From the NCBI GenBank assembly GCA_030998225.1, contig JAPYXD010000308.1, positions 4,536,001 to 4,600,000 of the forward strand: a stretch of 64,000 nucleotides of DNA, in the 5' to 3' direction. The stretch's first letter is position 1, and each line of letters begins with the position of its first letter. The position numbers and the translations under genes were made by a program. Below the pieces are notes generated by a model, which was not told where the DNA came from, made no database searches, and worked only from the letters and a program-made list of their open reading frames with translations. Shown here one piece after another: positions 38,180-56,273 of the stretch. This stretch comes from Diplolepis rosae. Taxonomy: Eukaryota > Arthropoda > Insecta > Hymenoptera > Diplolepididae.

Positions 38180-38186
38180 GCTGATT

Positions 38187-38205
38187 TGGTGGCAGCGGTG
38201 GGATT
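38187..38205 (+). promoter_or_regulatory. Primer-binding site, tRNA-Leu type
   Basis: TGGTGGCAGCGGTGGGATT, eight bases after the LTR, is complementary to the 3' end (CCA included) of a eukaryotic tRNA-Leu of the AAG/TAG group, whose 3' end reads ...AATCCCACCGCTGCCACCA. The tRNA end was recalled, not searched. Confidence 0.75.
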
Positions 38206-38763
38206 GTCACTTTTGTTGTCACAATTGATAATAATGTAAAATTTACTTAATTGAAGCGAATCAAAATTATATGAGCAATTATTTCGAATAAAAATTGTTC
38301 ATAAATAAAAGCTTCGAAATTTAGGAATTTTCAAAATTACAAAATTACAAGTTAAGTAGAAATAATTGGATAATATATTTCTACTCGTCAAAATTTAAAT
38401 ATTTGAAATTAAATCTTAGAATAAATTATCTTATTTTAAGCGTTGGTGTACTTCGTGTGATCACAAGCTCTGCCATCGTCAATAACATCATCGAATCACC
38501 CCGAATAAACCTTGCATGTATTCTTTATAGTAAGATTGTGCAAATGAAGGGTTAAAAAAAAAAAGTTATAAGAAAAAATCAAAACATCATTATTTTGATT
38601 TAAATCAATTTAAAGTTCAGAAGTTTTTCTACCTAGAGTTTACGCAGGCAATTGTGTCTCAACCATTACCTGAATAAACTTATAGTATTAAAACATTGAA
38701 TATTTAAATTCAAAATTTTATAATTACACAAATTTCTGAAAGTACTAAAATTACACAAGGTGT

Positions 38764-39290
38764 TGTGCTTAAGTCAGGCTTGTTTAATTTCGTACTACTG
38801 AAATTTTCAATTTGTTAACTAAGTTTGAATTTAAGTTTAAAACAAAACAAGAACAGCACACGAGAGTATAAGTCCTTTTTAGATTCGTTGAACGGTCACC
38901 GTCGATGACGATCGACTGGGTAAGGCAAAGTTCGAAGTGTTTGCATAGTAATTGTTTATAACTTTCATTTTAACTTTGTTAACTAACAGAATATTTTTGA
39001 TTGCAAAGATTGTCCAAGAGTCTGTGCTTGAGTCTAGCTTGTCCAATCTTGTATCTCTAAAATTCTGTGACATTAAACAATTTTTTTTATTGTTTATTAA
39101 CAATAAACATTTTCTGTGATTTTAAAGATTAATTAAGGGTTTGTGCTTGAGTCTGGCTTAATCAATTTTGTATCACCGAAAACGCAAGTTGTTAATACAC
39201 ATAATCTAATTATAAATTCAATAATTGCAATTACTTGCTCAGGAATTCGCGGTCGCGGCTGGCCTGACCCGCCTTATATCACTGAAAACA
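38764..39290 (+). repeat. Degenerate tandem motif in gypsy leader
   Basis: Four spaced copies of a ~45-base motif ('gtgcttgagtctggcttg', then 'caattttgtat.ac', then 'gaaaa') lie at about 38764, 39023, 39141 and 39254. A related copy occurs in the gag debris near 28185. Function unknown; a leader position could suit RNA packaging or translation control. Confidence 0.5.
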
Positions 39291-39615
39291 TATAATCCAA
39301 GGTTAAACGCTGCAGCGACTGCGCGCGCCACAGCAAGAATTTGCAGTACAGTAATAGCTAGAACAAATCATTGACAGTAACAGTTCAAAATTAGTATTAC
39401 TGCATTCATTTAAAAATAAACAATTAAAAACAAACAAATAAACAAATTCAGCAATAAATTAAATTTCCTAAATTAACAATTAAAAATAAAATTCAAAGTA
39501 ACCACGATATTATAATATGTAATAATAATTGAACTATAATACTTTTTTTAATATAAATAAAACACTTTGAACAGATTCTCACACACACACGATAAAAGAA
39601 TCCATTTGAACACTA

Positions 39616-39652
39616 TAACAGTTGATTTGGTTTGGTTTGGTGGCAGGCGACC
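39616..39652 (+). other. Second LTR-end/primer-site-like sequence in leader
   Basis: 'taacagttgatttgg' followed after a short TTTGG duplication by TGGTGGCAGG repeats the sequence around the true LTR end and primer site at 38175-38197 ('taacagctgatttggtggca'). It lies ~1.44 kb downstream and is degraded after the first 10 primer-site bases. Confidence 0.6.
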
Positions 39653-39855
39653 ATACGGTCAAGACAACCAAGGAAAAAGAAATTAAGGTCTACAAAATAG
39701 TTTATCATAATTTTAAAAAATCAAAATATTCTCAATTTTGCTCACAAAAGGACAAAATTCAGGGACAATAATATAAAATATTATTGTTCAGAATAAACTG
39801 AAAAATTAAGATCGGTAAATTATAATAAAAAAAAAAATAAAAATATAAAAATTGT

Positions 39856-40203
39856 ATGGCACATAAAGACTCCCATATAGTGTTTAAGCACGATTCAAAC
39901 ACTATAATTTCAGTCTATTCCGAATTACTAAAAAACAAAGTAGGCGACTTTTTATACGACCCAAATTTAACTATTAATCTAATTCATAAGGAGAAATTAG
40001 CCACCTATAATAACATTAACCATCTCAAAATTTACGTTATTCACAACGCCACCCTTACAACAAGTGGTGTAGTAAAAATTCCCATATTGAAGCAAGAAAT
40101 TGAGTTTAACATTATAAATCCAGAAATAGGTGCAGGCATATCCGGAGTAATTGGAAAATCGTTTCCAACTCTTTTCAAAATAAATATTCCGGATAAAGTC
40201 TAA
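39856..40203 (+). CDS. Leader ORF: retropepsin-like protein without active site
   Basis: The 115-residue ORF starts at ATG with no stop. Its middle, 'FLYDPNLTINLIHKEKL', lines up with the protease start in this element's own pol ('FLVDTGADINVI'): the F-L-x-D and I-N-x-I positions are kept but the catalytic Asp-Thr-Gly is Asp-Pro-Asn. The C-terminal 'SGVVKIPIL', 'IEFNIINPE' and 'ISGVIGKSF' match the later beta strands and the 'DGILG' loop of retropepsins. This suggests a duplicated protease domain that lost catalysis. It sits between the second primer-site-like sequence and gag. It could act as a dimerisation partner or be a frozen relic; expression is unproven. Confidence 0.55.
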   Translation: MAHKDSHIVFKHDSNTIISVYSELLKNKVGDFLYDPNLTINLIHKEKLATYNNINHLKIYVIHNATLTTSGVVKIPILKQEIEFNIINPEIGAGISGVIGKSFPTLFKINIPDKV

Positions 40204-40560
40204 ACATTTCTTACGAAAATTAAAATACTGGAAACAAAATTAATTATAATAATAATAACAATAAACATTTTATATAAGCCAACCTAAATCTGGTTTTGAA
40301 CATAAATTTTGACATTACACTGGCAAAGTAATTATTGAATTTTTTTATCAAAAAAAAAATTAATAATTAATAAGAATTTATTTAATTGAATTGATTAATA
40401 TTTGAAAAGGTCAGTTTTTCATCATTAATCAAAATTAAGGATCAGGTGCTAAAATTAATATAATTTTACACATAAGGAGCATTCGAAACTCCCGGTTTCT
40501 GGAGAGACTAAATTATACGGAATTTTATTCAACCTTTCGAATTACAAAAATTAAACCAAC

Positions 40561-41697
40561 ATGCCTCACGATAAAAATAGCACCACTCATGACAAAACGC
40601 AAGGTGGAGAGTTCACAGGAAACATTTCACGAACCCTTAGTGACGCCATGGTCACTTCAATGGCGGAATGTTTTGCTATACAACAGGGAGTGATGAATAT
40701 ACCCACTTTTAACGGGAAAAATATGCCAGTTAGGGACTTTATTCAAGATGTATTAAATGGAGAATCCAGCGTACCTGCAAATTGCGAAAGGCAGTACATA
40801 ATGGCGGTACTAGCGCGATTAAAGGGTGCCGCAAGAGATAGCACGCACGGAAAAACATTTTCCACAATAACCGACTTAATACAACATCTTAAACAGCGCT
40901 TTGCCCCCCACAAGACTTACTCGTGGTATTTGCATGAAATATCCATAATTAGGATGTCTCGCATCGAAAGTGTAAGCGAGTTTTACGACAGAATCACCCT
41001 ACTTAAATCCGGAGCTCAAGCGGCGTTAGAAGACAAATATCAAAACGCGGAGCAGATGTTACTACCCTTAAACGATTGCGCCTTAGAAGCTTTTATCCGA
41101 GGACTACCCGATGTAATATCAGGAATGGTGGAATCACGGAATCCATCGTCATTGGAAGCAGCATTAAAATACGCACTCGAGTATGAGGCTCGACATCAAT
41201 TAAACCCCCATTTTCCTATAAACAATATTGCGGAAAATAGATATTCCACCCCTTATACAGGATCAAGGGATAGGAGCCCAAGCCCTCATGTTAGGTTTGC
41301 ATCATCACCGGATAGGAATAGAGCAGTGGAACCCAGACAAGGACCATCAGGGATAATAAGGAGACCTACATCACCAATAGTGCCTAATTACCCGAATAAT
41401 TACGCACCCCCATTTCAATACCCACCTTATATACCCTATCAACCTTATCCGTACTATCCAGGTTCGCTAACATCAAACAACCCTTACCCTAATCACAATT
41501 ACCCATATAAAGGAACTAATACACCCCCGAGAGCACAATCACCAGCTCCAGCTAATAAAAATGATTTAAACTTCGATTCCGCTCGTCGAACAGACGCGAC
41601 GACGAGCGTGGAGAAAACCGAGCGTCAGAACAGCGTGAGATTTCTCAAGAAGCAAGAAAAATCTTCTGTACCAAACTCAGTCGAGAATCCCCAGTAG
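40561..41697 (+). CDS. gag: Gag polyprotein of gypsy element
   Basis: The ORF has 378 residues. The N-terminal two-thirds is a gypsy capsid-like region ('MNIPTFNGKNMPVRDFIQDV', 'AVLARLKGAARDS', 'LIQHLKQRFAPHKTYSWYL', 'EAFIRGLPDVISGMV'). The C-terminal third is Pro/Tyr/Asn-rich ('YPPYIPYQPYPYYPG', ~310-325) and basic, with no CCHC knuckle, as in errantivirus gags. The ORF ends in two tandem TAG codons. Pol overlaps in the -1 frame (open from about 41631), with an A-run at 41655-41661 as a candidate slippage site. Confidence 0.9.
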   Translation: MPHDKNSTTHDKTQGGEFTGNISRTLSDAMVTSMAECFAIQQGVMNIPTFNGKNMPVRDFIQDVLNGESSVPANCERQYIMAVLARLKGAARDSTHGKTFSTITDLIQHLKQRFAPHKTYSWYLHEISIIRMSRIESVSEFYDRITLLKSGAQAALEDKYQNAEQMLLPLNDCALEAFIRGLPDVISGMVESRNPSSLEAALKYALEYEARHQLNPHFPINNIAENRYSTPYTGSRDRSPSPHVRFASSPDRNRAVEPRQGPSGIIRRPTSPIVPNYPNNYAPPFQYPPYIPYQPYPYYPGSLTSNNPYPNHNYPYKGTNTPPRAQSPAPANKNDLNFDSARRTDATTSVEKTERQNSVRFLKKQEKSSVPNSVENPQ

Positions 41698-41744
41698 TAG
41701 AGCTTTCGTCGAATGAACTATTACAATCAAAGGCAAGGTTTTTA

Positions 41745-44700
41745 GTGGATACAGGTGCGGACATAAATGTCATTAAATTAGATGCTTTAGATGAGGACCT
41801 ACTGGTCAATGAGAATGAAGCAATAGAAATCACAGGAATTACACAAAGTAGGATTTCAACTATAGGAACAGTAAACATCGAATTAATGAAATCCAAAATC
41901 ACTTTTCATGTAGTACATTTTGACTTCCCAATAAGCACGGATGGAATACTAGGTCGAGAATATCTTCGACAAGAGAAGGTAGAAATATCCTTTTGGCATA
42001 ACACCATTGTGACGCACTCCAACCCCACAAAACCTATACCGTTCATAGACAATGAATCTAGAGTAGCGTTAGAAAATACCACAGATTACAAAGGGCCTCT
42101 ACTAGGACCAATCAAGGTAAGAGCCAGGACTCGACGAGCTATTCCAATAGCAGTAATAAATTCCGAAATAAAAGAAGGGTACTTACCCTTAATAAAAACT
42201 ACAGAGGGCGTGCTAGTAGGCGAAGCAGCCGTAACCAACGTGAATGGGATTTGTCATGTATTCGCCATTAATACAACAGATAATGACCTCGAAATAGAAT
42301 TACCCCCACAAGAAATCATCCCCTTTGAATATTACAAACTTCCAGGAGAAGATTTCGACGAATATTCGGCAGACGAAGATTATTCACCCCCAGTAAATAA
42401 AGCTGAAGAAGTAATAAAACACCTTCGACTGGACCATTTGAATACCGAGGAAAAGGAACATGTACTGGAGATAATTAGGGAATTTCCTGATAATTTCTAC
42501 CTGCCAGGAGAACCTCTAACCTCCACTCATTTAGTGCAGCACAAGATTCACACTTTAGACGACGTGCCTATTAACACCAGGCCATACCGATTTTCACCCT
42601 CTCAAAAGGAAGAAGTTGAGAGAGTAATACAAAAAATGAAGATAGAAGGAGCAATTAAAAACTCAAAATCTCCTTATAACTCACCCCTACTGATTATACC
42701 TAAGAAAATAGACGCCACAGGAAAGAAGAAATGGAGAATAGTAATAGACTTTCGGCTTTTAAATGAAAAAACAATTGGGGATGCATACCCATTGCCAAAT
42801 ATTGCAGATATTTTAGATCACTTAGGTACTGCACAATATTTCTCTATTTTTGATCTAGCCAGTGGTTTCCATCAAATAGAACTAGACCCGAATGATAGAC
42901 AAAAAACAGCGTTTTCATCATTGAATGGACACTATGAGTACGTCAGAATGCCCATGGGATTGAAAAATTCACAGGCTACATTCCAGCGCCTAATGGACCA
43001 AGTTCTATTAGGGCTACAAGGGACCGAATTATTTGTCTATCTCGACGACATAGTAATATACGCTAAAGACTTAGAAGATCATGGAAAAAAGGTAAGACGC
43101 CTTCTCAAACAACTGAAAGAAGCCAACCTGTCACTACAACCGGAAAAGTGCGAATTTCTTTTCAAAGAAATAGCATATTTAGGGCATATAATTACAGACA
43201 AAGGAGTAAAGCCAGATCCTAAAAAGATCGAGGCTGTTCAAAATTTTCCCAGACCAAGAACACCAAAAAACATAAAACAATTCCTAGGACTAGCCGGATA
43301 TTACAGAAGATTCATCAAGGACTTCTCCGCAAGAGCGAAGCCTCTATCAAATTTATTAAAAAAGGAAGCAGTATTTAAATGGGGACCAGTGGAAGAGAAG
43401 AGCTTCAGGGATCTACGACAAGCTCTGTGCGAAAGCCCCATATTGCAATACCCTGATTTTGAAAAACACTTTACAGTAACTACTGACGCTTCAGACTATG
43501 CAATAGGAGCCGTTCTGAGCCAAGAAAAGGACGGAATGGATCTCCCTGTGGCATATATGTCGAGAGTGCTAGTTGGACCCGAATTAAATTACTCTACAAC
43601 GGAGAAGGAATGCCTTGCAGTTCTCTACGCGGTACAACAATTCCGACCCTATATTTATGGAAGAAAATTTACCCTCATGAGCGACCATGAGCCCCTCAGG
43701 TGGATAGATTCTGTAAAAGATCCAGGCCAAAGACTAATTCGTTGGAGACTAAAATTAAGAGACTATGAATATGAGTTTAAATACAAACCAGGTAAATTAA
43801 ATACTAACGCGGATGCCCTATCAAGAAATCCAATCGTAGAAAACTCTGACGAAAAAGAAGAAGAAGAAAAACAGCCTGCCAGGTTACTGCCAATGTTGAC
43901 TAGACAAGCTAATAAACGAGAGGAAAACAGCGCGAAGCCTAGTTCAAAAACTTTAGAACCAGAAGCCAAAAATAAACCCGCAATTCAGACAAGAAAAGGA
44001 TTTACTTCGAGAATTTTACCCTCTAAACCCTCTACTTCAAGACCTCAAAAACCGACCCTCGCTAGGTCAAAGTCCAGTGCATCAACATCAGCTGATTTGG
44101 ACCAGAGCACCATTAGCAAACGGTTGATTCGACGGTGGGTAGAGACTCAACGAGTTCAGGATCGACCAGATTATAGAGAGGATAGCAGTTCGGACGACAC
44201 AGAACGGGCTCCAGAACCACCCCCAATCCTCAGAAAAAGAAAAAGTGTGCTACCAAGCTTGAATTTACCACCTGCAGCATACCCATCGTCAACAATACCT
44301 AAGAGTGCACCGGCAAAAGCACCAGAGTGCTCGGCTGAATTCTTCCCAGAAGATCAGGAAGAATTGACCCCTATGACAGAAAAACAAGAAACAGGACCCA
44401 TTAAAATGGTGAGTCCGCCACCCAGCGACAGTGAAGACAGTACAACAGAAGAAGAACAAGAAAGAGACCAGATGGAACAAGAAAAGGCTAATTCAACTAA
44501 GGAAAATATAGAAAAATCATTTTCACGATTTGAACAATCCTTAAAGGCCCATGAAGACTGGCTGGAGAGGACAGAAGTGGATGAAGAAGCCCCGCTTCTT
44601 GAAATCACAGCAGTTTCGGAAGGAGAAAATAATCAAGAGCTCCTTGATGCCATTGAAGAAATGGAACCTGAAAGCGAGACCGAATTCACGAACAGAATAG

Positions 44701-45704
44701 AATCAGCTATAAAAATAGCTGAAGAATTATTAAAAGAAACACAGAAAAAAGGAAAGGTGATAAATTCCGAAAGTAAGGAAAATCTAGACCCCGGAATTTC
44801 GTCTCCAGATGAAGAAGCCCCGACCAGAAATCTATACGCTCACACCAGAAAAAGTGTCACTTTTCACCCTGGAATAGCTTCAACCCCGGATGCTTTAGGG
44901 AAATATTCCCCCTCAGCACTAAGAAAACCCAGGGCTATTTCCACGCCCTTTCCAGAAAAACTGGATGACGAACCTAATTTTAATCCATCAACTGACAAAA
45001 GTAGTACTCGTAGAATGGGAATAAATATACCTACATACTCAGACGAACATACTATGGATACTACTAGTTTGCCGTCTGACCATTCGCGACCGTCAATCAC
45101 TTGCATCCCTCCGGCATTGCCTAAGGCCTATGAAATGTACAATGGAACAGGGACGCGCAGTAGTAAAACCGTGCAGGTCAGACTAAGTAGCTGTCGAGAG
45201 AATCTTACTTATTTGAAAAGTAATTACGTGCATTTTCTCTCGGTTGACTGTGAGTTTGTCACCCCCGTAAGCCGACTACTAGTGGACTTGGGAGTAGTAG
45301 ATCCTCAGGACCTGAAAAATAGGAAACCTAAAATAGGAGAAGTGCTTATCACACCTCATAGACGCTTTAACATATATTCACTCATAATTAAACAAAACCA
45401 TTTTGATGAGATAAACGAAGAATACGTTAAAGTAGCCGTACACAATTTGAGAATAGCCCTAGAAAAGGAAAATATTTCGGAATTTCGCATTTCAAAACAT
45501 GGAGACATTAGTGACACATTACCAATAGGAAAATTGCGCGAAATTCTAACTCAAGAATTCGCTAATTCAAAAATGGAAATAACAATATGTTATGGCAACG
45601 TAAATATACCCCCAGAGGAGACACGTACCCAAATTATCTCCGAAAATCATGAGAGTAAAATTGGAGGTCACAAAGGGATAAACAAAACATATCGAAGAAT
45701 TTGA
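41745..45704 (+). CDS. pol: Pol: protease, reverse transcriptase, RNase H, macro-like module
   Basis: Pol is in the -1 frame relative to gag, and its frame is open upstream of 41745, where a non-ATG codon stands, so expression by frameshift is expected. Order: protease with 'VDTGADINVI'; reverse transcriptase with 'RIVIDFRLLNEKTIGDAYPL', 'MPMGLKNSQATFQRLMD' and catalytic 'FVYLDDIVIYAKD'; RNase H with 'TTDASDYAIGAVLS' and 'EKECLAVLYAV'; chain-end 'NADALSRNP'. A ~440-residue Ser/Pro/Glu-rich region follows (43830-45150), then a ~145-residue macro-domain-like module (45160-45600) and the start of the integrase zinc finger. An in-frame TGA at 45702-45704 cuts it from integrase (45714-46655). Confidence 0.9.
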   Translation: MDTGADINVIKLDALDEDLLVNENEAIEITGITQSRISTIGTVNIELMKSKITFHVVHFDFPISTDGILGREYLRQEKVEISFWHNTIVTHSNPTKPIPFIDNESRVALENTTDYKGPLLGPIKVRARTRRAIPIAVINSEIKEGYLPLIKTTEGVLVGEAAVTNVNGICHVFAINTTDNDLEIELPPQEIIPFEYYKLPGEDFDEYSADEDYSPPVNKAEEVIKHLRLDHLNTEEKEHVLEIIREFPDNFYLPGEPLTSTHLVQHKIHTLDDVPINTRPYRFSPSQKEEVERVIQKMKIEGAIKNSKSPYNSPLLIIPKKIDATGKKKWRIVIDFRLLNEKTIGDAYPLPNIADILDHLGTAQYFSIFDLASGFHQIELDPNDRQKTAFSSLNGHYEYVRMPMGLKNSQATFQRLMDQVLLGLQGTELFVYLDDIVIYAKDLEDHGKKVRRLLKQLKEANLSLQPEKCEFLFKEIAYLGHIITDKGVKPDPKKIEAVQNFPRPRTPKNIKQFLGLAGYYRRFIKDFSARAKPLSNLLKKEAVFKWGPVEEKSFRDLRQALCESPILQYPDFEKHFTVTTDASDYAIGAVLSQEKDGMDLPVAYMSRVLVGPELNYSTTEKECLAVLYAVQQFRPYIYGRKFTLMSDHEPLRWIDSVKDPGQRLIRWRLKLRDYEYEFKYKPGKLNTNADALSRNPIVENSDEKEEEEKQPARLLPMLTRQANKREENSAKPSSKTLEPEAKNKPAIQTRKGFTSRILPSKPSTSRPQKPTLARSKSSASTSADLDQSTISKRLIRRWVETQRVQDRPDYREDSSSDDTERAPEPPPILRKRKSVLPSLNLPPAAYPSSTIPKSAPAKAPECSAEFFPEDQEELTPMTEKQETGPIKMVSPPPSDSEDSTTEEEQERDQMEQEKANSTKENIEKSFSRFEQSLKAHEDWLERTEVDEEAPLLEITAVSEGENNQELLDAIEEMEPESETEFTNRIESAIKIAEELLKETQKKGKVINSESKENLDPGISSPDEEAPTRNLYAHTRKSVTFHPGIASTPDALGKYSPSALRKPRAISTPFPEKLDDEPNFNPSTDKSSTRRMGINIPTYSDEHTMDTTSLPSDHSRPSITCIPPALPKAYEMYNGTGTRSSKTVQVRLSSCRENLTYLKSNYVHFLSVDCEFVTPVSRLLVDLGVVDPQDLKNRKPKIGEVLITPHRRFNIYSLIIKQNHFDEINEEYVKVAVHNLRIALEKENISEFRISKHGDISDTLPIGKLREILTQEFANSKMEITICYGNVNIPPEETRTQIISENHESKIGGHKGINKTYRRI
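45160..45600 (+). other. Macro-domain-like module within Pol
   Basis: The segment reads 'SNYVHFLSVDCEF', 'KPKIGEVLITPHRRFNIYSL', 'IIKQNHFDEINEEYVKVAVH', 'NISEFRISKHGDISDTLPIG' and 'EITICYG'. This order (HxxSxDC, GEV, YxLIxK, S....GD..D.LPI, I.I..Y) follows ADP-ribose-binding macro domains of the TARG1/OARD1 type, including a Lys and an Asp at the places of that enzyme's catalytic pair. The glycine-rich first loop is replaced by 'FVTPVSRLL', so binding or catalysis may be altered. The position between RNase H and integrase is unusual. Homology is by eye. Confidence 0.6.
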
Positions 45705-45713
45705 GAAAGGTAC

Positions 45714-46655
45714 ATGTGGCCAGGACTTAAAGAGCAAGTTACTGAATTCGTCAGAAAATGTGACATCTGCCAGAGACAAAAAATTGTACGGGCAAAAATT
45801 CACGAACCCATGCTAATCACCGATACACCCCTCGACACCTTCGACAAAGTTTCCCTAGACACAGTAGGAAAATTGCCTACCACCCCTGATGGTAATAAAC
45901 ATATTCTCACCATGCAGGACAATTTATCTAAATACTGCATAGCCGTCCCCATACCCGATATTTCAGCAACCACTATCGCTCATGCAATAGCAAAACACTT
46001 ATTTTCACAATATGGAGCCCCGAGGGCTATACTTACAGACAGGGGAGAAAGCTTCATCAATAAATTGCTCAGAAAATTATCCAAAATTTTCGGAGTAAAG
46101 CAAGTCACCACCTCAGGGTATAGACCGCAATCAAACGGATCCCTGGAAAGGAGCCATGCCGTATTGATGGATTACATAAGGTCATACGCGGAAACCTACG
46201 ACGATTGGGACCAACTCCTACCCTTCGCGATGTTCGCGTACAACACCTCAATACACGAAGCCACAAAATTTACACCCTTTGAAGTAGTGTTTGGTAAGAT
46301 TGCACGCACCCCCAGTTCATTTCCAAACCCAGAAAAATTAGAAACCTACGGAACCTATCTGCAGGAACTAATATTAAGACTATCGGAAATTAAATTAATG
46401 GCAGCGGAAAATTTGGTTGCCGCGAAGGAACATTCAAAAGAAAATTATGATCAAAAAGTAAAACCATTTTTAGGGAATGTAGGAGATCAAGTATACGTCC
46501 AAAGGGAAGTTAAAACACACGGAAAATTGGATAATAAATACCACGGACCCTACACCCTTGTAAAAATATTAGGCAAGAACAACGCCATCTTGGAAAAACC
46601 CGACGGAAAACTATTCCAAAAACATTTTAACAAACTTAAGTTAGTGAATGACTAA
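45714..46655 (+). CDS. pol: Pol C-terminal part: integrase
   Basis: Same frame as 41745-45704, separated only by one TGA and two sense codons. It shows the 'CDICQRQK' half of the HHCC zinc finger (the two His are upstream of the stop in 'HESKIGGH'). The catalytic core follows: first Asp in 'VSLDTVGK', second in 'AILTDRGESF', Glu in 'SNGSLERSHAVL'. The C-terminal domain has 'GDQVYVQRE' and 'KYHGPYTLVKILGKNNAILE'. The stop is a single break in an otherwise long open frame and would separate integrase from Pol unless read through. It could be a recent inactivating change in this copy. Confidence 0.88.
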   Translation: MWPGLKEQVTEFVRKCDICQRQKIVRAKIHEPMLITDTPLDTFDKVSLDTVGKLPTTPDGNKHILTMQDNLSKYCIAVPIPDISATTIAHAIAKHLFSQYGAPRAILTDRGESFINKLLRKLSKIFGVKQVTTSGYRPQSNGSLERSHAVLMDYIRSYAETYDDWDQLLPFAMFAYNTSIHEATKFTPFEVVFGKIARTPSSFPNPEKLETYGTYLQELILRLSEIKLMAAENLVAAKEHSKENYDQKVKPFLGNVGDQVYVQREVKTHGKLDNKYHGPYTLVKILGKNNAILEKPDGKLFQKHFNKLKLVND

Positions 46656-46699
46656 AAATTAAAAAAATATTAACCGCAATTTTCTTTTACAGGAAAATC

Positions 46700-47284
46700 A
46701 TGTCCAGCATTAACATGCGACCACCACAAGGAAAAATATACCCCGCTACCCTCCATCCAAAAGGGGAGATTAATAACTTACGGTTTGCTAAGGGACAGTT
46801 GGAGGAGCTGGTGGCAGAGTACGGCTTTACAAAACCAAAGTATACGTTAGAGGAAACCGCGGGAACCGACAACGCAAAAATTTTCATCATTAAATGCGAA
46901 GTAGAAGACCGTAGACGCGAGAATAAATTCAGTACCGTAAGCAACGGGGAAAGAAAAATACGTAGCGCAGAACATGAGGCCGCGAGAAAAATGTTAACGG
47001 CCCTTGAAAAAATGTATTTTTTTAGCGAGGAAAAAAATGATTGTAATATTACGGACGAAGAGTACGTTATTTGTATGGACAACCCCGCGACGTTATTAAT
47101 TAAATTATACAAATGGGAAGCTTGTTGCGAATACTGTTATTTGAGGGGCCATACTATGGCAAATTGTAAAAAGCAAATTAAACGAAATAAGCGGCTTCCC
47201 GACGATCAAGAACCAAACGAAGAAGACTTCTGGGGTCCTCCACAAGGGGATGAAAATACAAATCTTATATATCTAACGCCCTAA
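46700..47284 (+). CDS. Accessory ORF: dsRNA-binding domain plus CCHC knuckle
   Basis: The ORF encodes 194 residues and begins 44 bases after pol. Residues ~30-105 follow the alpha-beta-beta-beta-alpha plan of a double-stranded-RNA-binding domain: 'QLEELVAEYGFTKPKYTLEE', 'AKIFIIKCEVE', a hydrophilic loop, then 'GERKIRSAEHEAARKMLTAL' at the position of the family's KKxAK helix. A CCHC zinc knuckle 'CEYCYLRGHTMANC' follows at ~145-158. The tail is acidic. I know no gypsy element with such a gene. Such domains in RNA viruses often shield dsRNA from RNA interference, but that role is only inferred here. It could also replace the CCHC knuckle missing from gag in RNA packaging. Confidence 0.7.
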   Translation: MSSINMRPPQGKIYPATLHPKGEINNLRFAKGQLEELVAEYGFTKPKYTLEETAGTDNAKIFIIKCEVEDRRRENKFSTVSNGERKIRSAEHEAARKMLTALEKMYFFSEEKNDCNITDEEYVICMDNPATLLIKLYKWEACCEYCYLRGHTMANCKKQIKRNKRLPDDQEPNEEDFWGPPQGDENTNLIYLTP

Positions 47285-47894
47285 AAAGAAGTCTTCCTCC
47301 AATAAAAATTCACGGAATGCAAATTAACTAGTAAAATTCACTAGGAAGCCCCTAGCGAAACCACCATTTTCATTATTATCTTTTATATATTATAGGATTA
47401 ACAAAGTTGTAATTAGATAGCATTACTCATGACGCATATTAAATATCACCACTAGAATTATAGATATATTCGCAATTATACATAATAACTAGATTAGGCA
47501 CACACTATTATACCCATATATATATAAAGCTTGCAAAATAAATTAGAAAAACTTAAACGTAGGATGATTAATCAATGATTCAAACCCCAAACCACCTATA
47601 ATACTTATAATATTTATGCAATTGATTTGCAGTTTCAAAACCTATTCAACTATTTTCATATTCACATATATAATTATATCACTGTTATATTTAATAATTT
47701 TTTTGATAAAAATTCAATAATCTGATTTCATTAAAATAAGGGAATAAAGAAATCAAGAGAGAGGATATGGAGGTTGCCTTATTCCTTCTTCCCTTATCAA
47801 CACAACAATGTAACAAAAGATAACATCCCTGATAGAACTCTAATAAAATTTTAACAAAAACCTTACTTTTATAGACAAATAGACAAACAACAGG

Positions 47895-49877
47895 ATGTTT
47901 ACCCAGATCCTAGGCCAAGCAACAATGATCTGTACAGGAGTACTACTCAGCATGACAGGCTCGTCAGGAAACCCACGGAATTACGAAGTACAACCTTTTG
48001 ATAACAACCCAGGCTTATTCTACGAAAAACTGGAAACTATCCGCACTACTCAGAACCATTGGAGGTTCGTTATATTCATGGACCCCCAAAAACTACAGGA
48101 ACATCTTCAATTCGACAAAATGAAGTCAGAAGTTCAGAAAATTTACAAGACGTGCCCAAATCGATTGAAAAGTACTAATTGCAAAGATATGATAAAATTG
48201 GATCGCCTCAATGAAAAGCTACACCAACTCGAAGTTATAAATGAGGATTTAAGTGAAATACAAATGGAATTACACCAGGACATACCCCATGAAATAATTT
48301 CACCCAGGACCATGCATAGACGAAGAGCACCTCTTCTTGGATTCATAGGCAGCATTCTAGGACCAGTGATAAGGGTGATGACTTCCGACGACGCAGAGGA
48401 ATACAACGAAGCAATAAATGATATTTATGAAAAGCAAAATAACATCAGTAAAATAATTGGAAAACAAACCCACATAATAAAAGCAGAAGTGAATAATATT
48501 CATCAGGATCTAAACAAGAAAACTAAGCAAATTCAAATTATTCAAAAAGAATTAAATGAAACTATCAACAAAATAGAGTCACAAGGACAATACTGGAATG
48601 ATTACATGTATTATGAAAAAATGATACAATGGTCAACACATTTGGAACTAAAATTGGAAAATTTATATGAAATAATAAAACAATTCATTAAAATAACAGA
48701 ATACGCACGAGAAGGCAAATTACACCCTTCAACAATTTCCAAAGCCCAACTACAAGAAGTAATCACTGAAATACACACTAAAATGGAAGATTACGAATTT
48801 CCGATTCCTACTTCACACGTTAGAGTGGAATTACTTTCACAAATTGGCAAGACAGACCTTAAAATTAAATCTGGAAAATTACTAATATCAGTAGACATCC
48901 CATTGCTAGATAGAAAAGCACTACAATTATATAAAATTTACCCATTTCCTGTGTACCAGAACATTTCAGGAAATTATACTAGAGCCATCTACATTTTACC
49001 AAGAAAACAATATATTGCCCTGACAGAAGACGAAAGAAAATTCTTTTTGGCAGATAAAGAGTACTATGACACCTGTCAAAAAACAATCTACCACACGATT
49101 TGCGAAAACACCCAACCAATGCACGAAACAGTCACAACTACGTCCTGCGAATGTCAAATGCTTACACGCCCTTCAATGGAAATTTTAAAGCAATGTGATA
49201 TAAAAATAAACACAAAAAATTCAGTTTTTTGGAAGCATATTCCATCCTTAAACGCATGGATATTTTCAACTAAAAAATCAGAGCCAATCAGCATCACCCG
49301 TAAAAAGGGAAAAACAGAAAAAGGACATATTACAAATTCAGGAATATTAAGATTAAGTGCAGGGTGTATTGCCAGAACGGAACAGACAACTTTAATTGGA
49401 ACTCAAATAAATGTAAACTCAGAAGAATTTATCTACAACCCAGGATTTTCATTGAACATATCAGAAATTTCCCCAATAATCTATAAAACGATGCATATTC
49501 CTACGATAACATCATTGTTTTGGGAAACAGAAAAGGATAATAAATTAAAAAATCTGCATACGGAAGAATCACTCTCTACCATAGAAGAACAACTTCTCAA
49601 CATGGGAAACAATCATTATAGGCATAAACTAACCCAAAAATATTGGTTAGGAGGGTCCAGCATCCTAACCTTATTAATAATAACAACAGTAATATACCTC
49701 ACACAAGGAATAATCCGTAAAAACTGTAAAACGCGTAATAATACAAATTTAAGCATAAAAGAAAACCAAGAGGAAGTAGAACTACAACCCCTTTCGGTAG
49801 ACAACCAAACAAACACAGAAGAAATTCACCCCCTTCCAAGAGTATTAACAATCCCAACAACAGTTAGAATTGCATAA
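47895..49877 (+). CDS. env: Envelope-like glycoprotein (baculovirus F-type)
   Basis: Intact 660-residue ORF. It has a hydrophobic N-terminus consistent with a signal peptide (residues ~5-22), a furin-like basic site 'HRRR' at about 141-144 followed by a hydrophobic fusion-peptide-like stretch ('LLGFIGSILG'), long coiled-coil-forming helices (~165-230), a Cys-rich region (~400-435) and a single transmembrane segment near 586-608, then a ~50-residue cytoplasmic tail. This plan is that of errantivirus Env proteins related to baculovirus F. It probably acts at the membrane of infected or expressing cells and would need a spliced mRNA. A 610-base AT-rich gap separates it from the preceding ORF. 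Confidence 0.88.
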   Translation: MFTQILGQATMICTGVLLSMTGSSGNPRNYEVQPFDNNPGLFYEKLETIRTTQNHWRFVIFMDPQKLQEHLQFDKMKSEVQKIYKTCPNRLKSTNCKDMIKLDRLNEKLHQLEVINEDLSEIQMELHQDIPHEIISPRTMHRRRAPLLGFIGSILGPVIRVMTSDDAEEYNEAINDIYEKQNNISKIIGKQTHIIKAEVNNIHQDLNKKTKQIQIIQKELNETINKIESQGQYWNDYMYYEKMIQWSTHLELKLENLYEIIKQFIKITEYAREGKLHPSTISKAQLQEVITEIHTKMEDYEFPIPTSHVRVELLSQIGKTDLKIKSGKLLISVDIPLLDRKALQLYKIYPFPVYQNISGNYTRAIYILPRKQYIALTEDERKFFLADKEYYDTCQKTIYHTICENTQPMHETVTTTSCECQMLTRPSMEILKQCDIKINTKNSVFWKHIPSLNAWIFSTKKSEPISITRKKGKTEKGHITNSGILRLSAGCIARTEQTTLIGTQINVNSEEFIYNPGFSLNISEISPIIYKTMHIPTITSLFWETEKDNKLKNLHTEESLSTIEEQLLNMGNNHYRHKLTQKYWLGGSSILTLLIITTVIYLTQGIIRKNCKTRNNTNLSIKENQEEVELQPLSVDNQTNTEEIHPLPRVLTIPTTVRIA

Positions 49878-49911
49878 ACAAATACAAGTCGTTGAGGACA
49901 ACGACACTTTT

Positions 49912-49924
49912 AAGGAGGGAGGAC
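49912..49924 (+). other. Internal polypurine-tract copy after env
   Basis: AAGGAGGGAGGAC, preceded by 'gaggacaacgacactttt', closely repeats the tract before the 3' LTR ('gaggacgatgattattct' + AAGGAGGGAGGAC at 54294-54306). It lies 35 bases after the env stop. Confidence 0.75.
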
Positions 49925-52150
49925 AAGTACCCAAGTAGGCAAAATTTTTGCCAAAAATCACACTGAATTACGATACATCATTACGGTTACCACTAGGAAT
50001 ATACAATAAATAATCACGATACATAATGGCAGCTATAATAAATTAACAATCAAAGCAACAGAGGAAGAGAATAAGGATCATAGAAAGTACGAGGAGTTTA
50101 GCCATATCAAGCTAACAAACCACTCCCACTTGAGAAAGAAATTAATCACACCCACCGAGAGCAACCATAATGAATTATAATCCAATCACGTAAAGAAATG
50201 CAATGTGACACCTTACTGGACGCAGCGTATCACTAGCAGTCGAGACTCCCGACAACATGGCCAGAGCGTAACTTGAACCGCCCAGCGATAAGAAGACTCG
50301 CGACCGCCTGCAATGAATCATACATACTAAGCAGTTCTCCTGTATCTATATGAATGCCTATTACAAGTTCTTTATTAGACTTGCCAAAAACCCACAAGGC
50401 AGCGGGCCTTATACCAATGGATGCACCGACAAGATGGTTATCATTATCAAAAACTCCATGGCAGCCCCGCAACAATGGCCACCTAATATACAAGTATTAT
50501 TGGACATGCCACCATCATGGAGGTACAAGTGATACATATAGGTATGCAGAACAGCGAACTCCACATACGGTATGTTATCCGGTCAGAAAATTTTAAACGA
50601 ACAATCAAATTCGGGCGATTCCATTAACATTAATTGAATAATATCCGCGAAGAATAAAAGATGTGCAATGCTATATATCCATAAACCTTTAATCATGTAA
50701 ATCAATCAGAATTGAGCCACATGACTAAGGGTTTTTCCGAACTATAAGGGCACATATCTCCGTTGTTAACGCAATACTAGAAATAACCACAGAGATATTT
50801 CAAGTAATTGATTGACTAAGTAGTCAATGGGATAAGGCCATAATTTTGTAAAGAAAATAAGTACGAGCACATCGATTAATAAAGCCATTCTTGGTAAAAC
50901 CGGGTAACGCAAAACCTAACCATGAATCTTCTATTACAAATTACCCGATTTGGCCGATAAATAGGCTCGTGCCAGCCAAATTAACCTAGAAATAAGCAAT
51001 AGATGGATTTAATAAAATAACTATAAAAGGATTTCCCAGAATTCGGATTATAATCAGATTATAAACTAAGAACTAGGGTAGAACTTTTTAAAAAATTTTA
51101 TATTTAGTAAATTGAAGAAAGAGTTTTAATCACGCTGAACTAAGTTAATGTTTTGAGGCAACTAAAGTTTTACATGAAATCTTTGAATAATAATTTTATG
51201 ACAAGTGTTATAAAAACTGCTTACAGCTTCATAAAATTAAGAAAAGTTCAGAAAATGCAGTGCATTTTTGCAATTTTAGGATACTCATACCAAAATTCAT
51301 CCTAAGGATCGTCAAGTTTTACGTTAACCTTTACAACATGAAAATTTGAAGGTTTCTAACAGAATCCGACTATCATAATTAAGAGATAATGTCTATAAAG
51401 TCATGTATGTGTGTATGTTGTGTGAATTATGTGTGAATTACACATATACGCATGCATATATGCCTATATACATGTATGATGTCATGAAGGTATGACAGGG
51501 CATGGCTATTTAAACCACTACCATAAAAGCATCAATAAAACGTAACAGCATGAGTGCTCCTCAAGCAGTATGCTGCCCTGCTAAATCTTCATTAAGCTCG
51601 GAATTGAATTCGGGTGGTCCTGTGGCTAAAACGATGAAATTCCCCGCGTAACCTAAAAATACTTCATCAAAAAGCTATACACCTTCAATTATGTACACCG
51701 ATCGGATTTGGTCTACATAATTTAGGGTCCCTGCATACATGCATGCACACGTACGTACGTACGTGTGTACGCAGGTGTGTAGATGGGGTCAGCAATCATG
51801 GATAGACGAGCCCATAATTAAAAATACGATAATTATAACCTAAAACTAATAATCAATAATATAAGTAATTCTAAGATTATAGTTAGGTGCTATCGCGCCA
51901 CCTTTGGTACAGATTTCCAGGCGATAGCAATCAACAATACTACCAAAGGGGTCGCAGTAGAAATATAAGAAAAATATATATATTAAATATATTAAGTTCA
52001 TTTTAAATTAATTAAATTCTAAAGCTACGGGAATCAGAGAAATAAAACACGAAAATCAGAGAGACAAGCAGAGGGCAACATATAGGAAACAAAAATTTTG
52101 AACGTACCTCGTCTGCCAGTCTCTCAAGCTATTATATACGTTTAAAAATT
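49925..52150. other. Long non-coding part of gypsy 3' region
   Basis: AT-rich sequence with no convincing sense ORF. Alternating purine-pyrimidine tracts (TG/CA, TATA) lie at 51401-51480 and 51735-51780 ('cacgtacgtacgtacgtg'). A minus-strand frame at 50233-50493 (86 codons) looks protein-like but has no start codon and no recognised family. Confidence 0.5.
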
Positions 52151-52156
52151 TTTATT
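52151..52156 (-). terminator. AATAAA poly(A) signal of antisense gene
   Basis: AATAAA on the minus strand, ~170 bases past the antisense stop codon (52326), is suitably placed for 3' end formation. Confidence 0.5.
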
Positions 52157-52325
52157 CGCAAATAAATGAAGGACAACTTATGTATAAAAATATATAAAAA
52201 TAATAATATAATAATATATAAATATATAATATATAATAAAAGTATATATAAAGATAAGTAATCACAGCTAACTTAAAGGTATGAAAGCATCAATATGAAG
52301 ACAGGAATTTACAATAACGATAATA

Positions 52326-53769
52326 TTAGTGGTAGCTGGGAGGCAGCACCGGATCCTCCGTTGGCACCAGGACTTCCTCAGGCCTCGGGTCTGAAACAAG
52401 AATTAATAAATAAGAAACAGGAAATCGAAGACAAGAAACAGAAAGGAAGAAGGGAATTTTAAATGGAGCAAGATTGGAAACGAAATCTACAACTTACACC
52501 ACGGAGCATCATAGTATGTCCCGCATCGGCACGGGAGGACATGGAAGGAGCCACGCAGGTAGCGCCCGCAGTGACAGAAATCCCCCATGTACCAGGCACC
52601 ACTGAAACATTCAAAAACAAAGAGGAAATAATAAATAAAATATGCCAAATCAAGGTAATTCCAATGAGCACACGACGACTTACCCAAGGCAAACAGAAGG
52701 CACCAGGGATGAGTGTATACACTCCTGCATGCAAGGCGTGCCTACGTGCGCTTCCGTAAGCGCCAGCAGCTCCAGTGCTCGACGGCGTGCCACCTCCTGC
52801 GCTCGTCTAGCAGCCTGGATGGCTAGAGAGCGCCAGCACCTTCTAATTAGTCTATTTCGGCGCCCACCTCGGTTCTCCCGGGCCACCCGACTCCAGTTTT
52901 GTTGGAGCTGCCCCTGCTGAACAATCTCCGTCGCCAGGAGCAGCACCCGAGCCAGGAATAAGCCCGGGGAGCACCGCAGAAAGTTCCGTGGCCGCCCCTG
53001 CACGCCTGAAACAAAAAGAAAAAGGATAATTAAAGATTAACGATTGAAGAATGACGTAGTAGCCCTAAGGCACCACCCTATTCCACGCACCTAAGCCAAC
53101 CCCACCACTAAACCTCGACATTTTAGGGCGTCCTTACACCCTAAGATGCGGTGTTTTAGCTCCAGGGAGGCTACGCGTAGCAGAACACCGGGACTCCGCG
53201 AATCGAGAACCCTGACAACGGCAAAGGAGTCGTGGGAGACTGAGGAATTAATCAACTCCTGACAGGCCAGGGTCATTGATTCGATAGCCCGGCTGGGACG
53301 AACGCCGCGCACCGATACATAAAAAACCCCCAGTCGATCTTCAATCTCCGAAATCCGCACTTGCAAGCTGTCACGTCGCGGCGCAAACAGGGCAGGGTCC
53401 CCGGACGAAGAAGATGAACTGGAGACACTCGGCTGTAATAAAGAGAGGTCGAAATCCGCAACCGAGTCAATTAAGGAACGATCAATAAGAAGACCGGAGG
53501 CTTGAGGGCTAGAGTAATCGGGTGCCCCGAACCACTCAGCTAGTAGAGAGTCCAGGAAGTCCCCGGCGCCTGACATCTTGACCCGAACCAAGACACTTCA
53601 CGAATGCGGCACTACCCGAACCAATTATGCAAATTAAAAATGGGCACTTACCAGCTCCTTCAGGCACCGACGTAGCCCCCCTCACTAAGGAGAGAGGGTA
53701 GCCCTGATCTTGGCAGTGCTCCTCGTAAGAGATGGTCCCTGAGCTTGACGATGACCCATCTTCTGCCAT
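52326..53769 (-). CDS. Antisense five-exon gene inside gypsy 3' region
   Basis: Coding exons: 53769-53652, 53569-53138, 53005-52684, 52601-52498 and 52390-52326 (118, 432, 322, 104 and 65 nt). All four introns (82, 132, 82, 107 nt) are GT-AG, with donors GTAAGT or GTAAGG and, for the last three, pyrimidine-rich acceptors such as 'tttttctttttgtttcag'. Phases agree throughout, giving 346 residues from 'MAEDGSSSSSGTISYEEH' to 'VLPPSYH'. Exon 2 holds a heptad stretch ('VRISEIEDRLGVFYVSVRG') and 'VVRVLDSRSPGVLLRV', faintly like LINE ORF1/FP25 RNA-binding proteins. Exon 3 is an Arg-rich helix, exon 4 Cys-rich ('FCHCGRY', 'LPCRCG'), exon 5 ends in PPSY, a possible WW or late-domain ligand. Function unknown. 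Confidence 0.7.
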
Positions 53770-53781
53770 GGCTGCCGTAGA

Positions 53782-54172
53782 CTGAGGAGAAAATCATCCC
53801 CACGACCCAGCATGCAACGAGAGGACATCATGCCAACCATGCAAAAAACCCCACCAAGGCAGAACTCCTAGGGCACACGTGCACTACCATCCAGAACATG
53901 ATCCAAAAATTCGCCATGTCAACTTCTACATAAAATTGACTCATGGCAACTGCAGCATAGCATCACTATCCAACATCTTCGAAAAATGACATCATCCTGC
54001 ATCAGCTGAATCCTCAGATAACACCATTCTCAGGATACAAGTAGCCTAGTAGAAAAGAACAAAATACCAGAAACGCTCTGTCAAATTAATAACAAAAACT
54101 ACTTCAGTCCCTGCAGTCATCAACATGCAGCTGCAAAATAACATCACTATCTACCAGGAACTATTTACTTAC
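53782..54172 (-). other. Predicted 5' UTR intron of antisense gene
   Basis: On the minus strand a donor GTAAGTAAA follows 54173 and an acceptor 'ttttctcctcag' ends at 53782, 12 bases before the ATG at 53769. A 391-nt leader intron would join a short first exon to the coding exons. Confidence 0.5.
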
Positions 54173-54222
54173 CAAAGAGATTCCGGAAGTGCAATCCACA
54201 CCACAAATTATGGGGCCCACAA

Positions 54223-54231
54223 CTTAATATA
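54223..54231 (-). promoter_or_regulatory. TATA-like box for antisense transcript
   Basis: TATATTAAG on the minus strand lies ~50 bases upstream of the predicted leader-intron donor, so transcription could start near 54200, just inside the 3' LTR. Sequence-based guess only. Confidence 0.35.
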
Positions 54232-54293
54232 GAACGCCCACTACACTTTTTACGGAAGACACTTATTATTTCATCGAGGACGATGATTATTCT

Positions 54294-54306
54294 AAGGAGG
54301 GAGGAC
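54294..54306 (+). other. Polypurine tract before 3' LTR
   Basis: AAGGAGGGAGGAC abuts the TG of the 3' LTR at 54307; this is the expected plus-strand primer. Confidence 0.85.
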
Positions 54307-56273
54307 TGTTACATCCCAGTAACTTTTAAAATTTTATATTGCTCCTGTGCAAGGGCAATGCGCCAAACACCGAGGATAACGAGGAAGACATCATTCAAGT
54401 ATAAGAGTGTTCCTATGATAAATTATCATATGGACCGGGTAGCTGTGCGCATAAGGTAAACCTATGTATACCTCACGTCGAGGAATCGGTTTGACATATG
54501 GTAATAAGAGATGAAGAAGAACAGCGCCCTGTCTATATGGTAATTGCACCCGTGGTAATGAGTCAGTAACTCACACCGCGAGCCGATAAAGTAGTAACGC
54601 CGTGCTAATAACCTAATGAGAGAATGAGAAGTTATCGGCACAGCCTCACTAATTATAATGACTAAATATTATAATCATTATTATATTAATATTAATTATG
54701 TATCAACATTACATCAGTACTATTATTAATACATCAGGTAGTAAAATAGTATTGATCAATATTATCGCCATTATGTATTGATTGCCGATGAGTCGATCAC
54801 GATCGATGAATAAAAATCGATCATTGATTATGGATCATAGATAAGAAATCGATTGACTGATCATTGGCAACCAATTAATGATCATACTTCATAAAATAAG
54901 TAACACAAATTGTAAACAAATAAATGCAGAAATGAGTAATTATAAATGCATTTATTTGGAAACTAGATATAAAATTGGGCAATAGAAGAGATGAACTCAT
55001 GAACCCTTGCAGAGATCGTGCCTGGCCACCGATTCGCAATTCGTACGTGCCTTGCCACCGATTTGCGATTCGAACGTGCCGTGCCACCGATTTACGATTC
55101 GAACGTGCCGTGCCACCGATTTACGTTGATCTGCTCCCACTAATAGAAGCATCAATAGTATATATACCCCAGATTCACCTCTGGAGGTTTGTCATTAAGT
55201 TCCGAACAGTTGTACGGTTGTTAGGTCCGGACCGGTAATTCAACGTCGTGAGCAGACCCTTCGATAAACGTAAGTCTCAGTGGATTTCTATGAGCAACTC
55301 AACATTCGGTACTTGGTAAATAAAATCCTTGGTCCTTAAGTGGTGCAAGTCCGGAAACCGTAGTGCTAGATAGTTCCTTTGGATTACGTGTATCGTCGTA
55401 TTTAGTCGTGTCGGTTAATAGTGATTCATTTCTGAAATCGGGACGAACTAACCTATCTTGTTAACAAGTGCATGTTTGATTCATTTCTCGTGTACTTAAC
55501 AAGATACGTAAGCGGATAATTGATCACATCAGTCGCTGGTGGACTTGCATCCCTTACACCAACTATCCTGCAAGGATTTGTGCGCGTTGACTTGCAACAA
55601 TAGGAGTAATAAACGACAATTCTCTCTTTTGCCCTCTAATTTAAGAGGTAGACAAGTAAGTTATACATATAAATAAGCATCTCAAAACTTATTATATTAT
55701 CTATAACACTGAATGTGGTGCGTGAGTTGTATACATAGGCATCTCAAAACCTAGTATATTAGCGTAACACGTACACAATCAACTCCGGAAGTGACATATA
55801 TATAGGCATCTCAAAACCTGTATATTTGGCTCATAACCGTACAAAACTTATAACACTGAATGTGGTGCGTGAGTTGTATACCTAGGCATCTCAAAACCTA
55901 GTATATTAGCGTAACACGTACACAATCAACTGCGAAAGTGACATATATATAGGCATCTCAAAACCTGTATATTTGGCTCGTAGATGCATAAAACTCATAA
56001 AATTGCCTTCTCATCCGAGAAGTAGTATAGTTTACCACCTAAGTAACAAACTGTGCAACATTCTATTTATTTATAATAAATAATCATTTTTATTTACAAA
56101 TTCAGTATTTTATTATCATTGTGAACAACTCAGGGCCCATAGACCTGACAAGTGACAACGTACCCACAAACAAAAATAAATTATCAGGCCTTACCAACCT
56201 GATATAATCAGCCTACCGCCTCCCTTACATCCAATTATCCAACCTACCCTCGCCTTTTGCTCGGGACGTAACA
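54307..56273 (+). repeat. 3' LTR of the 20 kb gypsy element
   Basis: 1,967 bases, same length as the 5' LTR with no indel needed. Differences noticed by eye are single substitutions (for example near 54351, 54453, 54733, 55366, 55982-55985, 56107, 56176 and 56240). The right flank ACGC continues the LINE ORF1. Confidence 0.93.

Follow-up and report, generated by a model that had tools for sequence, protein, structure and literature searches.

What is encoded between env and the 3' long terminal repeat (LTR) of an env-bearing gypsy element in the insect Diplolepis rosae, on the strand opposite to gag, pol and env? The question arose from a 64,000-nucleotide stretch of the genome (referred to throughout as the window; assembly GCA_030998225.1, contig JAPYXD010000308.1, positions 4,536,001 to 4,600,000), in which a reading of the sequence alone had proposed a spliced antisense gene of five exons encoding a single product of 346 codons. 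Here, copies of the locus were compared across the same assembly (757.7 Mb, 428 contigs). As judged from these comparisons, an antisense coding locus lies on the minus strand at 53769-52326, between env and the 3' LTR and inside the LTR pair, both of its products are under selection, and a sibling element that has diverged carries it at the matching position. That the locus is protein-coding and used by the element is hardly in doubt. Probably it has two conserved products, namely a spliced four-exon protein and that of a second open reading frame (ORF2) situated within the first intron of the former.

Gene model of the antisense locus

Much of what the sequence-only reading had described is present in the window: the ATG at 53769, the donor at 53651, the acceptor at 53006/53005, introns 3 and 4 and the stop, together with a TATA-like box (TATAAA, first base 54338, in the 3' LTR) and an AATAAA (first base 52156), both as consensus matches. 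The single product did not survive comparison. Its 346 codons are reproduced only by donor 53651, acceptor 53570, donor 53137 (GGT/GTAAGG) and acceptor 53006, a combination that is one of 125 open choices of intron 1 and 2 sites when these are enumerated with introns 3 and 4 fixed. Since so many site choices stay open, phase consistency at introns 1 and 2, which had been offered as an argument against chance, is by itself weak evidence. Furthermore, no GT was seen by eye at the place matching donor 53137 in the diverged copies L056, L057 and L058, and use of this donor would remove the conserved end of ORF2. The 346-codon model was rejected on the enumeration and on the missing donor. Exon 1 can instead be joined to exon 3 directly, and ORF2 has a stop of its own. 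The direct join is open, phase 1 to phase 1, in the window and in L026, L030, L056, L058, L079, L085, L088 and L090, and in the window exons 1-3-4-5 in phase give a product of 202 residues.

A DNA-level search of the genome, in which 40 of 140 candidates were scored, listed at least 49 matching pieces. The sample drawn on below comprises 39 places plus the window, divided into 17 members of clade A (to which the window belongs) and 23 of clade B, the latter being approximately 84% identical to clade A at the DNA level. The ORF2 stop is present in 15 of the 17 clade A and in all 23 clade B copies, and is followed by GT in 16/17 and 23/23, respectively. In a wider set of ORF2 ends, TAG/GT was observed in 29 of 39 rows, or 28 of 37 distinct places with the window included (L057 is the same place as L078, and L068 as L086); two of the misses read TAG/GC, and the copies L094 (family F5) and L095 (family F6) have no donor there. 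A candidate acceptor for ORF2 is kept in 16/17 clade A copies, with TGA after it, and in 17/23 clade B copies, with CGA or CAA after it. In family F2, ORF2 is continuous in frame with exon 1 (219 residues in L056).

Purifying selection on both products

Sibling copies had been named in advance as one check, broken frames with no sign of purifying selection being an outcome that would speak against a gene; in the event, frames were found to be kept and purifying selection was detected. The main comparison was between the window and six of the 23 clade B copies. For ORF2, dS was 1.17-1.38 and dN 0.13-0.15, giving a ratio of non-synonymous to synonymous substitution rates (dN/dS) of 0.10-0.13, or ~0.11 overall, and for the spliced product dN/dS was 0.25-0.32, or ~0.27 overall. 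In the same six comparisons the exons and ORF2 are free of gap columns; the first 75 bases of intron 1 have 1, intron 2 has 11, the 5' flank 9-10 and the 3' flank 38-49. At first, second and third codon positions, the window and L026 (clade B) differ 37/13/69 times in ORF2 (p ~2e-9) and 17/11/38 times in the spliced product (p ~1e-4). The clades are almost identical in exons 4 and 5 and in introns 3 and 4, and the dN/dS of the spliced product therefore depends on exons 1 and 3. As controls, the other two frames on the ORF2 strand gave values of 0.85 and 2.81, with 8-9 stops in the window, and the sense frames gave 0.79, 0.18 and 4.26, with 14, 4 and 5 stops; the low value of 0.18 belongs to the sense frame in which third positions mirror those of ORF2.

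Comparisons within other families gave ORF2 values of 0.12-0.45 (L057-L058, 0.19; L056-L067, 0.22; close pairs up to 0.45). At moderate divergence exon 3 returned 0.12-0.35 (window-L062, 0.19; L056-L067, 0.12; L057-L058, 0.21), exon 4 mostly 0.06-0.25 with three values of 0.35-0.41, and exon 1 was below 1 in the comparisons made. Pairs drawn from different families are near saturation and carry low weight (exon 3, ~0.4-0.6; exon 1, up to 0.77). Collectively, the alignments indicate that both products are under purifying selection.

Intactness varies among copies. All six splice dinucleotides and the spliced frame are intact in 10/17 clade A and 11/23 clade B copies, and ORF2 is intact in 9/17 and 8/23. 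Among more diverged copies an intact model with intron phases 1-2-1 was recovered in 3 of 20 in one set (the window, L056 and L058; a fourth, L060, returned an out-of-phase model after a deletion) and 4 of 19 in another; the splice-site thresholds may have missed some intact models. Many copies have decayed, as expected for old insertions, and the selection signal comes from the lineages between copies. In L066 and L067 intron 4 is absent and exons 4 and 5 are fused in frame, the start of exon 5 being exact and the end of exon 4 approximately 9 bases shorter. This in-frame absence supports the proposed intron 4 boundary, and may stem from spliced RNA, from a deletion or from an older intron-free state.

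Conservation of layout in diverged families

When the genome was searched with the ORF2 protein, at least 152 matches were obtained, ranging from 100% down to 39% identity among those listed and many of them without an internal stop; the count is a lower bound, with 150 of 422 candidates scored. A second protein search with a diverged copy as query also gave 152 matches, at places partly shared with the first. Copies were grouped into families F1-F6 by identity and by eye. F5 and F6 (L092-L096) are two further ORF2 families with ~35-44% identity to the F3 query, and around the F6 copy L096 (flank L098) weak matches to pol alone (37-43%) were obtained, with no env found.

In L056, L057 and L058, whose ORF2 proteins are ~40-48% identical to that of the window, exon 1 is again followed by ORF2 and then by exons 3, 4 and 5, and in all three ORF2 ends with TAG on a donor-like site. 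Phases 1-2-1 with an open spliced frame are shared by the window (202 residues), L026 and L030 (202), L056 (215) and L058 (210), and the same phases were recovered by gene-model search in L079, L085, L088 and L090; in L057 a break in exon 3 interrupts the spliced frame. From one family to another, exons change in length by multiples of three (exon 3: 322, 349, 352; exon 4: 104, 95, 104), whereas introns do not. A search for relatives of the spliced protein gave 10 matches, of which P0090 and P0089 look like genomic copies with deletions.

The same exon set at the same place, which the initial reading had proposed to seek in sibling elements, was located within this genome in the diverged F5 element (L092 with flank L097). 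Compared with the window, its pol is 77-83% identical, its dsRBD ORF 49% and its env 52-55%, all on one strand, and the antisense locus is downstream of env on the opposite strand. By eye, exon 1 of L092 ends in phase 1 at GTGAGT, ORF2 ends TAG/GT, exon 3 ends YCLG and is followed by an exon 4 with CxC...CxC and by exon 5, all in the same phases; exon 3 holds one stop. Because the same layout and place recur in an element whose env is only 52-55% identical, the association between element and locus appears to be older than the split of the window and F5 lineages.

Predicted features of the two products

An RNA-binding middle part had been suspected, and the C-terminal half of ORF2 is indeed predicted to adopt an RRM-like fold (AlphaFold2), preceded by a DFDLSLL motif. 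The acidic-hydrophobic character of this motif presumably recalls activation domains. The predicted domain, with a helix in front, gave a weak structural score against LINE-1 ORF1p (2w7a, 2yko), to which no sequence match was found. In the spliced product a basic, predicted helical part and a CxC...CxC motif occur, and exon 3 is predicted as two basic helices. The PPSY end described earlier was seen only in F1, and not in L056 or L058. Pfam searches with the ORF2 and spliced products of the window gave no match at E 10, TRP28 (PF04195) and bZIP included, although HMMER filters drop most matches above 0.1. An AT_hook row was obtained for L067 (12.9 bits against a cut-off of 17.4, E 0.11) and for none of the other four queries, and GRGRPR was noted by eye in the F2 spliced product. 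A viral fold library returned a few papillomavirus E2 rows, none of them significant.

Exchange between copies

Clades A and B look like a recombination mosaic. Within 52160-52690 they are near-identical in introns 3 and 4 and exon 4, while ORF2 differs at ~25% of sites. On the env side, L056 (F2) and L058 (F3) share 100% identity over 92 bases and 72% over 269 intervening columns, and on the LTR side 96% over 358 columns; between these flanks blastn (E 1e-5) gave no match in the antisense gene itself. Versions of the locus that have diverged strongly are flanked by near-identical sequence, as though they had been exchanged as a cassette. Variants of Drosophila endogenous retroviruses recombine, according to PMC12992720. 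In the LTR itself, the first ~830 bases (54307-55138) of the window are diverged from F2 and F3 (about 51-85% per 100 columns), and the next ~400 are 94-98% identical to the window in L075 and L076. Identity between LTRs is 93% for L058 and L056, but only ~83% in the first part for L057 and L058, which are both F3.

The host element

The element, of approximately 20 kb, is an env-bearing, errantivirus-like gypsy element: self-comparison of the window gave a single LTR pair (99.5% identical) with ACGC, a short target-site repeat, on the outer flank of either LTR, the order is gag-pol-env, and env is of Baculo_F type. The dsRBD ORF contains a CCHC-like stretch, seen by eye, and retains 49% identity in the F5 element; as a guess, its product might suppress silencing or be a relocated nucleocapsid. 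In the gap between the 5' LTR and gag, a sense frame of 115 codons (39856-40203) looks protease-like by eye, with no match in a Pfam search. Two 147-base tandem repeats, 94% alike, lie within the LTR (55702-55995). Just outside the 3' LTR is an ORF with a Pfam match to RVT_1 (56401-58557), which probably belongs to a non-LTR element and to which related DNA pieces recur across the window.

Table 1. Features of the antisense locus and of its host element, in window coordinates
Feature	Position	Strand	Basis or remark
Exon 1	53652..53769	-	Starts with ATG 53769-53767; N-terminus rich in Ser; phase 1 at its end, followed by donor GTAAGT (53651)
Long intron 1 (646 nt), spliced out for the spliced product; holds ORF2	53006..53651	-	Phase 1-to-phase 1 join
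ORF2, 161 codons plus TAG stop (53093-53091); second product	53091..53576	-	dN/dS, alignment, AlphaFold2
GTGCGT donor-like site immediately after ORF2 stop; putative alternative donor	53085..53090	-	TAG/GT across copies
Exon 3 (third exon of the sequence-only reading); basic, two predicted helices	52684..53005	-	Open frame, conservation, dN/dS
Intron 3, GTAAGT...TTTCAG	52602..52683	-	Splice sites in copies
Exon 4, CxC...CxC motif	52498..52601	-	Open frame, dN/dS
Intron 4, GTAAGT...TTTCAG	52391..52497	-	Splice sites in copies
Exon 5, TAA stop (52328-52326)	52326..52390	-	Open frame
AATAAA, possible antisense poly(A) signal	52151..52156	-	Consensus match only
TATAAA, inner edge of 3' LTR, possible antisense promoter element	54333..54338	-	Consensus match only
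Whole env-bearing gypsy element	36213..56273	+	Self-BLAST, ORFs, Pfam, flank repeat ACGC
5' LTR	36213-38179	+	Self-BLAST
gag	40561-41697	+	ORFs, Pfam
pol	41745-46655	+	ORFs, Pfam
dsRBD ORF, between pol and env	46700-47284	+	ORFs, Pfam dsrm E 4e-06
env (Baculo_F match)	47895-49877	+	ORFs, Pfam
3' LTR	54307-56273	+	Self-BLAST

Discussion

The explanation favoured here, with somewhat better than even confidence, is that the antisense locus belongs to the element itself, has a regulatory role and encodes two proteins. A transcript would start near the inner edge of the 3' LTR, and two alternative donors would share one acceptor. Use of donor 53651 would join exon 1 to exon 3 and yield the 202-residue protein, whereas if this donor were unused the RNA would retain ORF2, with translation ending at its TAG; the donor immediately following this codon could then be joined to the acceptor of exon 3 as well, and exons 3-5 would form an untranslated tail. 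Translation of ORF2 in F1 and F3 would call for a short intron, leaky scanning or a different start. Both products would act in the nucleus on the element's own expression, the spliced product via its basic helices and a CxC...CxC site that may bind zinc, and ORF2 via its RRM-like domain behind the DFDLSLL motif. The chances that the products are nuclear regulators are judged to be about even. In antisense orientation introns can persist in a retroelement, since splicing does not remove them from the sense genomic RNA.

Other explanations fit parts of the evidence. The products may serve as nucleic-acid chaperones or packaging helpers, ORF2 binding element RNA in the manner of LINE-1 ORF1p and the spliced protein aiding assembly, an alternative that is tentative yet deserves attention. 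Slightly less likely still is a type-specific cassette, in which donor choice gives two proteins and near-identical proviruses exchange diverged versions (together with the adjoining LTR half in the window's family), for self/non-self or copy-number control with each type acting on its own LTR; that LTR type and antisense type are not strictly matched counts against it. Introns are usual in host genes and the locus stands outside the core genes, as it would if an intron-bearing host gene had been taken up as antisense DNA and were evolving mainly as a passenger or as a host-like protein. However, the loci read, which are part of the 152 matches listed in either search, were multi-copy relatives alone, and the same locus is found in a distinct sibling element, making capture improbable.

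The 346-residue protein, combining exon 1, most of ORF2 and exons 3-5, does have an open frame with GT-AG introns in the window, but in view of donor 53137 lacking its GT in L056-L058, the 125 open choices and the retention of the ORF2 stop in both clades it merits very little credence. Least credible of all is that the antisense RNA matters rather than any protein, or that the frames are due to chance. Non-coding antisense RNAs are known, for instance that of micropia of Drosophila hydei (cited in PMC7264820), but codon-position bias, a dN/dS of 0.1-0.3 in the coding frame and the values and stops of the same-strand control frames led to the rejection of both.

The locus resembles several known systems. 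Antisense ORFs of plant gypsy elements (Grande gene23, RIRE2, Retand TRP28) and of fungal Boty occupy the same place, between pol and the 3' LTR, in the same orientation and across families (PMC7264820, PMC11963269). Their function is given as unknown, with a nuclear or DNA-binding role proposed: the Retand ORFs, mostly with a TRP28 domain, are proposed regulators (PMC11963269), and the Grande gene23 product is nuclear and has its own promoter (PMC7264820). Like a plant-type antisense accessory gene (aORF-3R), the present locus has an antisense ORF that is conserved across many copies and placed between the 3' LTR and the sense genes. It differs in the lack of a TRP28 match, the presence of env upstream, and a multi-exon product with a nested second ORF; the word 'intron' was not found in the two plant papers searched (PMC7264820, PMC11963269). 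HBZ of HTLV-1 and APH of HTLV-2/3/4 are likewise antisense near the 3' LTR, with spliced and unspliced RNAs, and regulate sense genes (PMC10186651). At the sequence level, conserved splice sites and a TATAAA in the LTR would suit a comparable spliced transcript, although the products here have no bZIP match, in contrast to HBZ, the exons are more numerous and the host element is unrelated. Env-bearing insect endogenous retroviruses and errantiviruses share the gag-pol-env order, the Baculo_F-type env and recombination between variants, but no antisense gene or dsRBD ORF is described in the available portions of that literature (PMC12992720, PMC13172572). Bdelloid rotifer LTR elements carry other additional ORFs (PMC5408684). 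A literature search covering the leading open-licence matches, exclusive of the errantivirus survey of Chary and Hayashi 2025, recognised no such gene in an animal gypsy element.

In polyomaviruses, large-T and small-t arise from two donors that share an acceptor, and the segment excised from the upstream donor contains a stop; the layout is alike, but the sequences are unrelated and the virus is of a different kind, so that this is analogy and not membership. The predicted RRM-like domain of ORF2, with a helix in front, may parallel that of LINE-1 ORF1p.

Few of the antisense genes known from retroviruses and plant retrotransposons have been characterised, and with their function debated they have long been a puzzle. 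Here, such a gene is found in an env-bearing gypsy element, with introns and a nested ORF, and in dozens of copies within one genome on which codon-level selection can be measured. The locus shows how a retroelement can keep introns, and allows a direct test of whether the role of antisense accessory proteins is to regulate LTRs, to assist in RNA packaging or to oppose host silencing.
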